Assembly: GCF_013377295.1 (NCBI RefSeq)
Contig: NZ_CP016180.1
Coordinates: 1,860,001 to 1,924,000, forward strand
Source: Pasteurella skyensis
Lineage (GTDB): Bacteria > Pseudomonadota > Gammaproteobacteria > Enterobacterales > Pasteurellaceae
DNA length: 64,000 nt
Direction of reading: 5' to 3'
Shown: positions 6,526 through 60,742 of the stretch, in pieces
How the letters are laid out: each line of letters begins with the position of its first letter
Position numbering within the stretch: position 1 is the first letter of the stretch
The notes under the pieces: model-generated
Told to the model about the DNA's origin: nothing
Seen by the model: only the letters and a program-made list of their open reading frames with translations
Database searches by the model: none
Program-made: the position numbers and the translations under genes

Positions 6526-6561
6526 ACAAGCGGTTAGATTTACATAAAAATTTACAAATTT
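6526..6561 (+). repeat. DNA uptake signal sequence
   Basis: ACAAGCGGT followed by TTAGATTT and AAAAATTTACAAA, the extended Actinobacillus-type USS, between the two lactate genes. Confidence 0.8.
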
Positions 6562-6578
6562 TATTTACTAAAACAAAA

Positions 6579-6604
6579 GGTTTGCTTACAAATTGTAAGC
6601 AACC
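6579..6604 (+). other. Intercistronic hairpin
   Basis: GGTTTGCTTACAA pairs with TTGTAAGCAACC. The following TTCATTT is too poor in T for a strong terminator, so this may attenuate or protect the message between the permease and dehydrogenase genes. Confidence 0.55.
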
Positions 6605-15687: not shown

Positions 15688-15718
15688 AAAAAACCGCCTG
15701 TATTTCTACAAGCGGTAT
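15688..15718 (-). terminator. Leftward terminator before the baseplate module
   Basis: Minus strand ACCGCTTGTA / TACAGGCGGT stem followed by seven T. It contains a USS core and ends the accessory antirepressor unit only 15 bp before the Dit-like gene. Confidence 0.85.
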
Positions 15719-15740
15719 GATTTAATTAAGTTTTTACAAG

Positions 15741-16461
15741 TTAAAAATCATAAAGCAATCTTGGTCTAACTTGCTCTGCAAAATCATCAAGCCAAAAATT
15801 AAACTCGTGGCTTAAGTCATAAGCTGTCGCAGCAATATTATTGCTAATACCTGAAAGACGTGTTATTCCTAGTGCCTCAAACAAATCTCGGTGCGTTTGC
15901 TCCATATTTTTAGCAAATTGTTGAGACATATCAATATATTTTAGTATAACTTTTGCCGTTTCTCTGTCTATTGTAACCGTTTCATTTTGGTCTAATTTCT
16001 TTACTTCATTATCAAAATAGGCTTTTGCTTTTTTCATTACACATTTTAATGGCATTCCAAAATTATGTAAGTAATGACCGCCTAATTCATCACTGATTTT
16101 ATTATACATTCCTTTATTAATGGCTTCAGCTCTCATTTCTTGTGCTTGATTGCAGAAATGATACAGTTTAGCTACTAATTGTAATGTATCTTCATCACAT
16201 TTGTTTTCTTGTACCATATATCGAATAGTTTATGGGTAAGCAAATCATTTGTTGATCACCACCATTTGAAGGTGTGATCATAACGATCATACCTTGTGAA
16301 AGTACTGTATCACGTTTAATTCTAGCTAATTGTGCTTCCCACGCTAAGCCGATATTTTCACAAATAGGTTTCATTGCAGTGTATTGTGTACCGTCTTTTT
16401 CAAAAGTAATTAAAGATTGATTGTTGAATGTAATTGTTTGGGTTGAGATTTGATTAGACAT
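15741..16461 (-). pseudogene. Antirepressor (P22_AR_N type), internally deleted and frameshifted
   Basis: The frame starting at 16461 (AAGGAG site) encodes about 75 residues of a P22-type antirepressor N-terminal domain (YTAMKPICENIGLAWEAQ, RIKRDTVLSQGM, MICLPINY). In family members LPINY is followed by LNGWLFGI; here the frame runs into unrelated residues and stops at 16195. A second frame (15741-16217, 158 residues, no ribosome site) overlaps by 23 nt and looks like a helical C-terminal region. The best reading is one antirepressor gene with a deletion after LPINY. Alternatively the N-terminal fragment is made alone. Confidence 0.6.
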
Positions 16462-16486
16462 AACTGTCTCCTTCTTTTAGTTTTCG

Positions 16487-16748
16487 AAATTTTAACTATG
16501 GTCATATCACCATAGTAGGTGATCGAGTGGTTCGAAAATCTGAGAAGTAACAGATTGGACGTATTCCCCTTTCGGGTATTGTATTAGTCGCCCACTCGAT
16601 CATAGATTGTAAATACACCTTTTTGCATAAAAATTTGATAGACACTACTTTTAGTGAATTTTTGATACAAAAAAACCGCATAGGGTTTCGGCTGCGGACT
16701 TGCCGCTTCTTTTAAAGGTTTCGACACCTTAGACGTTTTCACATCTTG
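16487..16748 (-). ncRNA. C4-antisense-like structured leader of the antirepressor (copy A)
   Basis: Between a promoter and the antirepressor start the minus strand carries: a terminator-like hairpin ending ATGCGGTTTTTTT (near 16670-16700); a long-range stem TGATCGAGTGG (16592-16602) / CCACTCGATCA (16520-16530); inside it a CCC-GAAA-GGG hairpin (16566-16577) and an AATCTG/CAGATT hairpin with loop TTACTTCT (16537-16556); then a hairpin ATCACC/GGTGAT that competes with the long stem. Loop CUUCU can pair with AGAAG at the ribosome site. The same architecture recurs at 46510-46723 with different bases. An open frame passing through it (stop at 16584) resembles Icd/Ash leader peptides (AASPQPKPYAVF). 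Confidence 0.65.
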
Positions 16749-16754
16749 TGATGA

Positions 16755-16783
16755 ATAATATAATTTTATTTTTAATATGTAAA
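16755..16783 (-). promoter_or_regulatory. Promoter of leader A / antirepressor
   Basis: Minus strand TTTACA, 17-bp spacer, TATTAT; predicted start near 16748. The -35 abuts the terminator of the upstream gene. Confidence 0.7.
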
Positions 16784-46478: not shown

Positions 46479-46508
46479 TTGACAAACCGCTCCCTTTCGG
46501 ATTATTAT
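46479..46508 (+). promoter_or_regulatory. Promoter of leader B / BRO antirepressor
   Basis: TTGACA (46479-46484), 18-bp spacer, TATTAT (46503-46508). Same -10 as copy A. Confidence 0.75.
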
Positions 46509-46509
46509 A

Positions 46510-46723
46510 ACCGCACTATTTAACGCAAGCGGTTATCCGCACCCGACAGCATAGCGGTTTTTTTATGCCTAAAATTTAGCATAGTAACGATCTATGATCG
46601 GGTTTAGAGAACCTAATAAAATACCCTTTGGGGAATAAGTTCCGCCAGCTTGCGTTGGTAGTTGAAGCCCGATCACCCTACTAAAGTGATCGAATTACTA
46701 ACTAAAACGCAAGGTATTAAAAA
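46510..46723 (+). ncRNA. C4-antisense-like structured leader (copy B)
   Basis: In order: hairpin ending CATAGCGGTTTTTTT (to about 46564); long stem TGATCGGG (46595-46602) / CCCGATCA (46668-46675); inside it CCC-TTT-GGG (46624-46632) and a hairpin GCCA...TGGT with loop CTTGCGTT (46649-46656); then GATCAC/GTGATC, which competes with the long stem. The loop is fully complementary (8 of 8) to AACGCAAG at 46522-46529 and again at 46706-46713, which covers the ribosome site of the antirepressor. Architecture equals the minus-strand leader at 16487-16748. Confidence 0.7.
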
Positions 46724-47734
46724 ATGTCAAATTTAACTCAATTCAATTTCAAATCTAATCAAGTTCGTGTAGAAACTAAAAATAATCAACCATTATTTTG
46801 TTTAACCGATGTGGCTAATATTTTAGAAATACGTAACGCAAACCCTAGTCGTTTCAATATGAAAGAAGACGGTATACATAAAATGTATAGTGTCGATTCT
46901 CTTAATAGAAAGAATGAAATTACTTTTATTAACGAAGCAAACTTATACCGAGTAATTTTCAGATCTAACAAAAAAGAAGCTGTAGAGTTTCAAGATTGGG
47001 TATTTGAAGAAGTATTACCAACAATTAGAAAAACGGGAAACTATTCAATACAACAACCAAAATCCCATACCCAAACAAAACCGATTAATATTCCAAAAAA
47101 ATTAAATGTAGGAGGGGTGATCGTTCACCCGATAAAAATTAACGGGCAAGCCTATTTTACTGCAAGAGAATTAGCTTGTGCATTTGGATATACAAAATCA
47201 GATGCAATATTACGAAAATACCGAGAGTATAAAAGGCTATTTAAAGAGGGAATGGTTCAAACAGCTCAACACTACGTTACCAATCTTGTCGGCAAACGAA
47301 CGCTAACCTTAAGTTATGCCTTTAGTATTGAAGCCCTACGATTAATTGAAGCTCAAATGAACCCTAAAGCAAGAAGAAATACCTTTAGACTTGGCTTAGC
47401 AAGACTGGAAAGAGCCTTAGAAAATCCGCAACTAAATTTACCTATCCAACGACCTGATTTACCTGTGCAAATATCCCCAACGGTAATAGAAAAGCCGATA
47501 GGATTAAATCCGGGTCGTTGGTTTGTGAATGTCGACGACAATTGCAATATTACTACCCTTATGAACCTAGAAGGAAAAAGTATTGTTGAGGCAGAACTCT
47601 ACGACCAACTCAAAGGCGAAACTCGAATGATGGCAAAATTAATGCAAGAGCTAGCGGAAAGAATGAAAATTGCAAGTGGCGAATGCAGTCCATCTCGCTT
47701 CGACATACCACTATTACAACCTAAAAACCTGTAG
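46724..47734 (+). CDS. BRO-N domain antirepressor-like protein
   Basis: 336 residues. N-terminal BRO domain (LFCLTDVANILEIRNANPSRF, ITFINEANLYRVIFRSNKKEAVEFQDWVFEEVLPTIRKTG; about 24-103) followed by a second DNA-binding-like region (QAYFTARELACAFGYTKSDAILRKYREY, in parts, about 145-172) and a helical tail. Antirepressors of this type relieve CI repression. The leader suggests RNA control in the lysogen. Confidence 0.85.
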   Translation: MSNLTQFNFKSNQVRVETKNNQPLFCLTDVANILEIRNANPSRFNMKEDGIHKMYSVDSLNRKNEITFINEANLYRVIFRSNKKEAVEFQDWVFEEVLPTIRKTGNYSIQQPKSHTQTKPINIPKKLNVGGVIVHPIKINGQAYFTARELACAFGYTKSDAILRKYREYKRLFKEGMVQTAQHYVTNLVGKRTLTLSYAFSIEALRLIEAQMNPKARRNTFRLGLARLERALENPQLNLPIQRPDLPVQISPTVIEKPIGLNPGRWFVNVDDNCNITTLMNLEGKSIVEAELYDQLKGETRMMAKLMQELAERMKIASGECSPSRFDIPLLQPKNL

Positions 47735-48103: not shown

Positions 48104-48141
48104 CAAAATTTGCAAAAACTTAACACAATCTGACCGCTTGT
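48104..48141 (-). repeat. DNA uptake signal sequence inside the prophage
   Basis: Minus strand ACAAGCGGTC, then AGTTTTTGCAAATTTTG, the extended USS. Evidence that this phage has evolved within USS-bearing Pasteurellaceae. Confidence 0.75.
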
Positions 48142-48195
48142 AGAAATATAAGCGGCGGATTGTTGCACCCAAATTTCAGGAAAAGGTGGAAAAAA

Positions 48196-48894
48196 ATGAC
48201 AATGACAACACTTATCTCAATTGAACATCAAATTTTAAATAATGAAATTGTACAAACAATAAATGCCAGAGAATTACACCAGTTTTTGGAAAGTAAACAA
48301 GATTTCTCAACGTGGATTAAAAACCGTATTAAACAATATGACTTTTCTGAAAATGTAGATTATATCCTGCTCCACAAAAAAATGGAGCAGGTTTCAGGGA
48401 GTAAATACCTAATGGAATACAATATCAGTCTAGATATGGCAAAAGAGCTTTCAATGGTTGAACGCAGTAAAAAAGGCAAACAAGCTAGACAGTATTTTAT
48501 TGAGTGCGAAAAACAGGCAAAACAAAATGTAATACTTCCAAAAAATTATGCTCAAGCATTACGGGCTTACGCTGACCAAGTAGAAAAAGTAGAAGAACTT
48601 AAACATACCAAAGCTGAAATAGGTTCAAGAAGAGAGGCGACAGCAATGGCAACGGCAAGTACAGAGAAACGCCGTGCTGAAAAGCTACAAGTTGAATTAG
48701 ATAAATCAAAAGAATACGCCACAGTAAAACGTATGGAAATGCTTTATCACGGACAAAAATTTAATTGGCGAGAATTAAAATCTACCTCAAACGAAATGAA
48801 TTTACCGCCTATAGATGTTTTTGATGCCAATTATGGCACGGTTAAAAGTTATCACCGTGATGTATGGCAAGAAACTTACGCATTAGGTTTTTAA
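48196..48894 (+). CDS. AntA-type antirepressor
   Basis: 232 residues from ATG 48196, placed by the AGGTGG site. N-terminal AntA/AntB domain (INARELHQFLESKQDFSTWIKNRIKQYDFSENVDYILLHKK; YNISLDMAKELSMVERSKKGKQARQYFIECEK) at about 25-110, coiled coil, then a C-terminal domain with GQKFNWRELKSTSNEMNLP. A second antirepressor in the same operon. Confidence 0.85.
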   Translation: MTMTTLISIEHQILNNEIVQTINARELHQFLESKQDFSTWIKNRIKQYDFSENVDYILLHKKMEQVSGSKYLMEYNISLDMAKELSMVERSKKGKQARQYFIECEKQAKQNVILPKNYAQALRAYADQVEKVEELKHTKAEIGSRREATAMATASTEKRRAEKLQVELDKSKEYATVKRMEMLYHGQKFNWRELKSTSNEMNLPPIDVFDANYGTVKSYHRDVWQETYALGF

Positions 48895-57561: not shown

Positions 57562-57587
57562 TGGTGGAGCTGGGGGGAGTTGAACCC
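57562..57587. repeat. attR core (26 bp)
   Basis: Identical to attL and equal to the last 26 nt of mature tmRNA including CCA. Confidence 0.95.
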
Positions 57588-57928
57588 CCGTCCGAAATTT
57601 CTCTACCGTCAGTACTACATGTTTAGTCTAATCTTTAATTTAACTTACTCACTGCGGATAGACACGCGATAAGTAAGCGAACTTGGTTTAATTTAATGCT
57701 TCGATCCTCAAGTTGCGGCTTCCACACGATCTTGTTTGGTTTTGACTCCTCTTGATCCCCGTCTTACAAGCTAAAGCTAGGGAGAGAAGGCTCTATGCAG
57801 GTTATTAAGCTGCTAGTGCGTAGTTTTCGTCGTTTGCGACTATTTTTTTGCGGTTTGTTTACGAGGCCTACCGCACCTCGACATGCACTTTGGGCTTCGC
57901 TAATCCCGTCGAATCCTGAATCAGCCCC
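57562..57928 (-). ncRNA. ssrA: tmRNA
   Basis: 367 nt. 5' end GGGGCTGATTCAGGATTCGACG, tag frame GCAAACGACGAAAACTACGC... at 57805-57837 encoding ANDENYALAA followed by two TAA, and 3' end GGGTTCAACTCCCCCCAGCT...CCA. 5' and 3' ends pair as the alanine-tRNA-like domain. The tag is the same as in E. coli. Host ribosome-rescue RNA; its 3' end here is supplied by the phage attR. Confidence 0.97.
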
Positions 57929-58959: not shown

Positions 58960-59016
58960 ATAGCGGTATGATGAGAACAAAAATTTGCAAATTTTTATCA
59001 ACATCTTACCGCTTAA
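58960..59016. repeat. Convergent USS pair acting as terminator
   Basis: TAGCGGTATGATG and CATCTTACCGCTTA face each other around AAAAATTTGCAAATTTTT, between convergent rpoH and symporter genes, as at 382-438. Confidence 0.75.
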
Positions 59017-60470: not shown

Positions 60471-60509
60471 ATACATAAAGACCACAAACCACTCTATAGA
60501 AAGAGTTAC

Positions 60510-60742
60510 TTTTCTCCCCTGTCCTTTTGCCTGAGCGTTTCACATAACATTTTTTAATGTCATATTTTCGCCTTCGGCGTCCATTTTCTGCATTTAGCAG
60601 ATTGGATCTCTCCAAGGGTTCGTCCAATAGCTGTCCTCACTATGCGGTCTAATTTTTATTCAATTATATTATTAAACATTTGCACAGCACCTGAAAGATT
60701 TTTCCTCTTCGGTATGGTGTTCTCACCATTCTCCAGCTACCT
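60510..60742 (-). promoter_or_regulatory. Tandem glycine riboswitch
   Basis: Minus strand has two aptamers: the first from GGTAGCTGGAGA with ACCGAAGAGG, a TTTCAGGTG variant and GAGGACAGC; the second with CTTGGAGAGA, GCCGAAGGCG, then CGCTCAGGCAAAAGGACAG. Conserved glycine riboswitch strings are clear in the second. The expected partner, an AGCS symporter, follows. A small hairpin ACTCTTT...AGAGT and about 100 nt lie between it and the start codon. Confidence 0.9.

Follow-up and report, generated by a model that had tools for sequence, protein, structure and literature searches.

A 64,000-nucleotide stretch of the Pasteurella skyensis genome (hereafter, the window) contains two copies, A and B, of what is probably a C4-type antisense module that silences an antirepressor gene. 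We place the probability of this reading at roughly 88%. The layout is like that of C4 and yet the C4 model test failed, so we call the module C4-like rather than C4.

Organization of the two copies

As shown in Table 1, copy B consists of a promoter-like site, an upstream box, a terminator-like hairpin, a folded RNA, a box at the ribosome site, and a gene, in that order, with the predicted promoter directly upstream of the a1/b1 boxes. The sequence-only reading had claimed that a hairpin loop is complementary over eight bases to both the ribosome site and an octamer upstream. The complementarity was borne out base for base at all three places, although calling it a loop was only partly right: half of the octamer lies in the stem of the predicted fold, which has a TTGC loop on a 6-bp stem (the loop has six bases in the Rfam model). 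It is the arrangement of AACGCAAG at copy B that is unusual rather than its count, which was three on both strands of the window against 2.0 expected. The bipartite pattern ACTA-N1-6-ACGCAAG matched four times in the whole 2.2 Mb genome, always within the copy B locus (the RNA, the upstream site, and the ribosome site, the last of which can be read in two overlapping ways). Read backwards as a control, the pattern gave seven chance matches in the genome. The octamer is found 10 bases upstream of an ATG twice in the genome, at copy B and at one other place.

Table 1. Positions within the window of the features assigned to copies A and B.
Feature	Position	Strand	Basis or remark
Copy B predicted sigma-70 promoter, TTGACA-18-TATTAT, 11/12	46479..46508	+	consensus match; 0.8 expected in shuffles
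Copy B a1 box, ACTA, upstream complement of TAGT in the RNA	46515..46518	+	sequence, genome pattern search
Copy B b1 box, AACGCAAG	46522..46529	+	RNA match reaches 46530 (nine bases)
Copy B leader, GCGG (46529-46532), CCGC (46537-46540), GCGG (46554-46557), T-run (46558-46564)	46529..46564	+	
Copy B C4-like RNA, RF02221 (sRNA-Xcc1) match, 56 bits	46596..46682	+	closing helix 46596-46604 with 46667-46674
Copy B b', CTTGCGTT, part of hairpin P3, antisense to both b1 and b2	46649..46656	+	predicted fold
Copy B a', TAGTT, antisense to a1 and a2, between P3 and closing helix	46659..46663	+	
Copy B a2 box, AACTA	46700..46704	+	sequence, genome pattern search
Copy B b2 box, AACGCAAG, overlaps AAGG ribosome site, 10 bases before ATG	46706..46713	+	
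Copy B Bro-N antirepressor-type gene, 336 aa, proposed silenced target	46724..47734	+	PF02498, E 4.6e-26
Copy A predicted promoter, TTTACA-17-TATTAT	16755..16783	-	weak; 1.8 promoter-like sites expected in shuffles
Copy A a1 box, TCGAAA, in hairpin loop	16719..16724	-	sequence, predicted fold
Copy A b1 box, AGAAG, then CGG	16706..16710	-	
Copy A leader terminator-like hairpin, CCGCA/TGCGG and T-run	16669..16697	-	
Copy A C4-like RNA, RF02221 match, 64.8 bits	16514..16600	-	
Copy A b', CTTCT	16543..16547	-	sequence, predicted fold
Copy A a', TTTTCGAA	16531..16538	-	sequence, pairing table
Copy A a2 box, TTCGAAAA	16481..16488	-	
Copy A b2 box, AGAAG, adjoins GAG of ribosome site	16471..16475	-	
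Copy A target gene, P22_AR_N antirepressor start, 88 aa only	16195..16461	-	Pfam scan

The matching sites had been said to change together at copy A. The three-way co-change between A and B stood, but the 9-mer shared at copy A, TAAAAGAAG, can pair with just five bases of the hairpin (AGAAG/CTTCT), and a second box, TTTTCGAA with TTCGAAAA, supplies most of the pairing. Such a second box pair stands beside the octamer or its equivalent in both copies, joining TAGTT to AACTA and ACTA in B, and TTTTCGAA to TTCGAAAA and TCGAAA in A. This pair was absent from the first reading, as were the leader terminator and the precedent of C4 in phages P1 and P7. The antirepressor gene of copy A looks broken and its RNA module intact, and repression at copy A may therefore be idle.

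Several other features were seen in the window. An AntA/AntB antirepressor gene (48196-48891, +) is located just 3' of the Bro-N gene, with a DUF2513 gene between them. After the 88-residue antirepressor of copy A there is a second open frame (15741-16217, -) in a different frame. A tmRNA (57562-57928, -) may mark the end of the prophage, and a glycine riboswitch lies at 60509-60625 (-). Short dispersed repeats with ACCGCTT-like words occur at 384-438, 6529-6583, and 58962-59016; at 528-567 and 48105-48144; and at 15694-15742.

The RNA body belongs to RF02221

Both copies matched the RF02221 covariance model over positions 1-87 of 87, with 56 bits for B and 64.8 bits for A against a cut-off of 53 bits. 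Copy B's predicted closing helix starts with UGAUCGGG and that of copy A with UGAUCGAG. The RF01695 (C4) model gave no match at either copy even to E 10, and membership in that family was rejected on these grounds; the C4 of P1 scored 68.8 with RF01695 in the same kind of search. Conversely, the RF02221 model did not match P1 C4. Since RF02221 and RF01695 do not cross-match, it is layout only that would argue for common descent with C4. The model of the leader family c4-a1b1 (RF03163) found nothing at either copy to E 10 and scored 51 bits in P1. Two traits of the C4 type were nevertheless found, namely that a'/b' are complementary both to a1/b1 upstream and to a2/b2 at the ribosome site, and that the RNA lies upstream of, and in line with, antirepressor genes (Bro-N, P22_AR_N). 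A covariance model that we built from 59 relatives held only 11 base pairs, with two sub-classes perhaps misaligned.

Boxes change together across relatives

We asked how well each box region matched the target region of its own locus relative to that of other loci. A total of 213 loci provided 220 core instances, of which 206 had enough flanking sequence (14 were left out for short flanks). These fell into 104 clusters, leaving out 102 as near-duplicates, and 75 representatives were tested after setting aside 29 without a predicted P3 loop or a start codon. Seven further representatives with three-base loops were left out in the first test only. A fixed rule selected the start codon, and for some rows (e.g., L122 and L159) it selected the wrong one. 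Specifically, the test statistic was the longest exact complementarity between a box region and its own target region, compared with swapped loci.

All four comparisons among the 75 representatives favored the locus's own partner, with 0 of 10,000 permutations reaching the observed value in each. The mean match of b' was 6.21 bases with its own ribosome site versus 4.00 when swapped, and 6.59 versus 4.59 with the upstream site. For a', the corresponding means were 6.09 versus 4.68 at the ribosome site and 7.09 versus 5.14 upstream. Matches of at least six bases at both sites were present in 47 of the 75 representatives. Where b' matched at least six bases before the start codon, the match ended 7-11 bases from the ATG in 38 of 49 cases. 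Seven of the 75 matched in the leader and not in the chosen start region, and at least two of these look like a wrong choice of start. With a slightly wider loop, 48 loci matched at both sites; the upstream word was followed by CGG in 43 of them and the downstream word by a GGA/AGG ribosome site in 39. Box order, three-way complementarity, and co-change in relatives can be read directly from these loci. The earlier claim of a self-silencing RNA with locus-specific matching was thereby strengthened, and the four comparisons argue for it.

Predicted specificity of pairing

The P. skyensis genome has four RF02221 copies, and in a table of all their predicted pairings every RNA paired best with its own ribosome site and its own leader, in all rows. 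Copies A and B had own pairings of -17.7 and -17.0 kcal/mol, respectively, whereas the crosses between them gave -6.5 and -10.3 kcal/mol. Judged by pairing energy, the isolation of A from B that had been predicted from sequence would hold, and copy B appears well isolated among the four copies. Copy A is more weakly isolated from the copy at genome position 1030518 (own -17.7, cross -15.6 kcal/mol), because the two share a', the second box. When RNAduplex energies were ranked over all 50-base windows of the 64 kb, neither copy's target sites were among the best. Hybrid energy alone does not single out the target sites.

Distribution and downstream genes

RF02221 was found in 14 of 148 genomes searched of the order, 69 of 140 genomes of the window's family (Pasteurellaceae), and 22 of 79 in the family to which a Xanthomonas genome belongs. 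A search for an exact core with 20 specified bases gave at least 120 viral-contig stretches, along with 66 stretches of named genome contigs, which included Alpha-, Beta-, and Gammaproteobacteria, Desulfovibrio, and others. The genes downstream are mostly of antirepressor types: a Pfam scan of the 75 downstream open reading frames gave (in overlapping counts) Bro-N 21, P22_AR_C 11, KilA-N 10, Rha 9, P22_AR_N 8, AntA 6, and SymE 1. The isolated phage S1249 (L245) has two tandem units, the second of which precedes an annotated anti-repressor, Ant, with matching boxes.

We also noted that the first unit of S1249 is missing the downstream b box ahead of the next promoter. Tandem RF02221 units spaced about 230-540 bases apart were seen at L024, L048, L052, L083, L208, L245, and others. 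RF01695 was present in 96 of the 140 genomes of the window's family, with three matches in this genome. One of these three (L246, genome positions 271900-273600) is a true C4 (RF01695) that has an IsrK-like leader. Inspected by eye, its b boxes match, and the whole C4 module is spanned by an open frame. Another genome (G236) had 28 RF02221 and 27 RF01695 matches, and many of the C4 ones were regularly spaced with identical scores.

A different picture emerged in the Xanthomonadaceae, where the matches listed comprised 41 distinct units, four of them linked to SymE (12 of 59 loci were left out as not from Xanthomonadaceae or not from the RF02221 searches). Among the 37 units without SymE, 33 matched their own leader over at least six bases and 4 had a local downstream match of at least seven. 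Genomes with many dispersed RF02221 copies (L217-L274) had hairpins matching their own leader and not the downstream gene. For two box sets lacking a target, a search of three Xanthomonas genomes for partners returned none for one set and a single match for the other, none of it convincing. These leader-only copies, possibly including the kind that passages of one paper discuss for Xylella vesicles (PMC12189769), fall outside the simple picture.

RF02221 upstream of SymE

Co-change was also seen among paralogues. A Candidatus Thiosymbion record carries five SymE genes of 66 residues that differ at one position, and their boxes differ, changing together in the leader, the RNA, and the ribosome site. 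Variants of a1 include TTCAAAAC, CGAAAAC, TTGACAAC, and GTGAAAAC, each matched by its a' and a2; two of the five copies share one box set. A sixth RF02221 place in this record (L242), with a decayed start and ribosome-site box, stands outside the five. Upstream of some of the copies is GTTAGGC, which we take to resemble the core of an integron attachment site. Our scripts identified SymE by a sequence motif. The Xanthomonas locus with the best RF02221 score (92 bits) is also located upstream of SymE, with boxes that match on visual inspection. One SymE locus (L216) failed the automatic test owing to a misplaced loop, but its boxes match when inspected by eye.

According to passages of a study of Xanthomonas integrons, sRNA-Xcc1 upstream of symE is the most widespread cassette, and divergent regulation has been suggested for it (PMC12444791). 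We propose that the box matches at SymE loci may indicate what that regulation is.

Proposed mechanism and alternatives

Under the C4-like reading, one promoter would give rise to a transcript containing a1/b1, a hairpin resembling a terminator, the folded RNA (about 80 bases), a2/b2, and the antirepressor gene. The b' box in P3 and the a' box on the strand following it would pair with a2/b2 and cover the ribosome site, such that the antirepressor would not be made and the prophage would stay silent. We infer from the matched sequences that the element acts as an RNA and that this RNA represses. The RNA would probably be cut out as C4 is and could also act in trans. Less surely, its binding to a1/b1 may promote termination in the leader and so limit its own transcript, in the manner of the P4 CI RNA.

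The strongest of the competing readings centers on the leader. The copy B leader can be read as a terminator-like hairpin overlapped by an alternative hairpin, a layout repeated in relatives. The leader hairpins of A and B went unreported in a standard terminator scan, in the case of B because its loop exceeds the length that the scan allows. A CGG..CCCGNNAG..T-run motif followed b1 in 59 of 104 representatives compared to 10 of 2080 shuffles. In P1, the SymE loci, and both copies here, the CCGC of the terminator stem is also a possible partner for the GCGG next to b1, so an RNA bound to b1 could free the terminator. Attenuation in the leader is plausible on this predicted structure. That attenuation or self-limitation is the main task, with pairing at the ribosome site secondary, we regard as unlikely, although it would account for the frequent CGG after b1, the leader-biased matches of the Xanthomonadaceae units without SymE, and the shared layout of the P1 leader, and it has a precedent in the P4 CI RNA, for which passages of PMC4825925 describe a termination mechanism that uses seqA and seqC. 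Against this, the match at the ribosome site nearly equals that in the leader across the 75 representatives, b2 mostly overlaps the ribosome site, and the terminator is itself predicted, with CGG in many loci able to pair only with a CCG in the terminator loop rather than the stem.

A second possibility is that the unprocessed leader folds on itself, with b' on b2 in one molecule and no RNA acting in trans. A predicted fold of 220 bases of the transcript does pair CTTGCGTT with AACGCAAG at the ribosome site (z -3.2 versus shuffles). We consider this reading improbable given that it leaves the upstream boxes unexplained and that the fold of the separate RNA is conserved and matches RF02221, the founder of which is an 88-nt RNA seen by Northern blot and end mapping (PMC2996969); the C4 of P1 and P7 is likewise a processed RNA that binds target mRNAs, as passages of PMC5320573 have it. 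Far less probable is that the octamers are DNA operators for a repressor. A short word present three times close to a promoter would suit operators, but across very different loci the word varies in step with the hairpin apex and the ribosome site, it is not palindromic, and the second box pair runs in antiparallel order, for which reasons we rejected this interpretation. Finally, the lack of enrichment of AACGCAAG by itself in the window could hint at chance or a repeat artefact in an AT-rich prophage. We rejected this as next to impossible in view of the permutation test, the confinement of the bipartite pattern to the copy B locus, and the SymE paralogues.

Implications

Returning to the C4-like reading, the coordinated changes seen in relatives suggest a C4-like mode of action for an RNA family that is widespread and unexplained. 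This provides a testable function for an Rfam family found in about half of the Pasteurellaceae genomes and in many phages, relatives of which have been treated in the literature as RNAs of virulence or of vesicles. The co-changes found in nature predict precisely the base swaps that would redirect the RNA, which bears on target specificity, cross-immunity among prophages, and a same-strand antitoxin for SymE. More tentatively, and with greater odds against than in favor, RF02221 may represent a second great branch of C4-type RNAs, in the Proteobacteria and reaching beyond phage immunity. Its boxes would be swappable addresses, with one body silencing prophage antirepressors and serving as a same-strand SymE antitoxin in integron-like cassettes, and leader-only copies would be self-limiting and possibly act in trans against incoming phage genes. 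If so, the roles of sRNA-Xcc1 relatives in virulence and vesicles would need re-reading.

Comparison with known systems

The closest counterpart is C4 of phages P1 and P7. The P1 record lists a1, b1, C4 (77 nt), a2, b2, icd, and ant, with a1/b1 marked putative, and the order here is the same. RNase P, cleaving at a GG, yields a processed C4 of about 77 nt. The likeness extends to a single transcript, a closing helix with two hairpins, an antirepressor operon, a ribosome site covered by b', and pairing of a' upstream of the ribosome site. P1 and copy B share their spacing, with 66 bases separating b1 and the RNA and ten separating b2 and the start codon (105 and nine, respectively, in copy A), and the GCGG-N-CCGC-N-GCGG-T layout of the P1 leader is that of copy B. 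According to passages of PMC5320573, C4 is cut out by RNase P and binds target mRNAs, its b' partly covers ribosome sites, and its a' gives target specificity. The differences are that the RNA body here falls in a different Rfam family, one whose P2 arm is long and conserved, and that the direct target would be the antirepressor-type gene itself rather than icd ahead of ant.

In the passages concerned, sRNA-Xcc1 is treated as a virulence-linked sRNA with targets that are only predicted (PMC12189769, PMC12444791, PMC2996969), whereas the present analysis defines a candidate local target. A passage of PMC12189769 lists sRNA-Xcc1 and C4 both, as separate annotations. Among openly licensed papers in PubMed Central, we found none assigning a C4-like local role to sRNA-Xcc1.

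Three further systems share parts of this arrangement. The CI RNA of phage P4 lies on its own transcript between two complementary sites, seqA and seqC, but as described in passages of PMC4825925, on which this comparison is based, it prematurely terminates transcription of replication genes and does not block a ribosome site. IsrK of prophage Gifsy-1 is a short leader RNA with a terminator and read-through into an antirepressor operon, again per passages of PMC4825925. With the IsrK model, the P1 leader scored 35.1 bits and the copy A leader weakly (20.2 bits), both below the cut-off of 50. IsrK activates anrP translation in trans, whereas the RNA here would repress. Finally, the SymE/SymR type I toxin-antitoxin system resembles the RF02221 loci that precede SymE, in that an antisense RNA controls SymE. 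SymR is described as encoded in cis opposite symE, whereas the RF02221 RNA lies upstream on the same strand.
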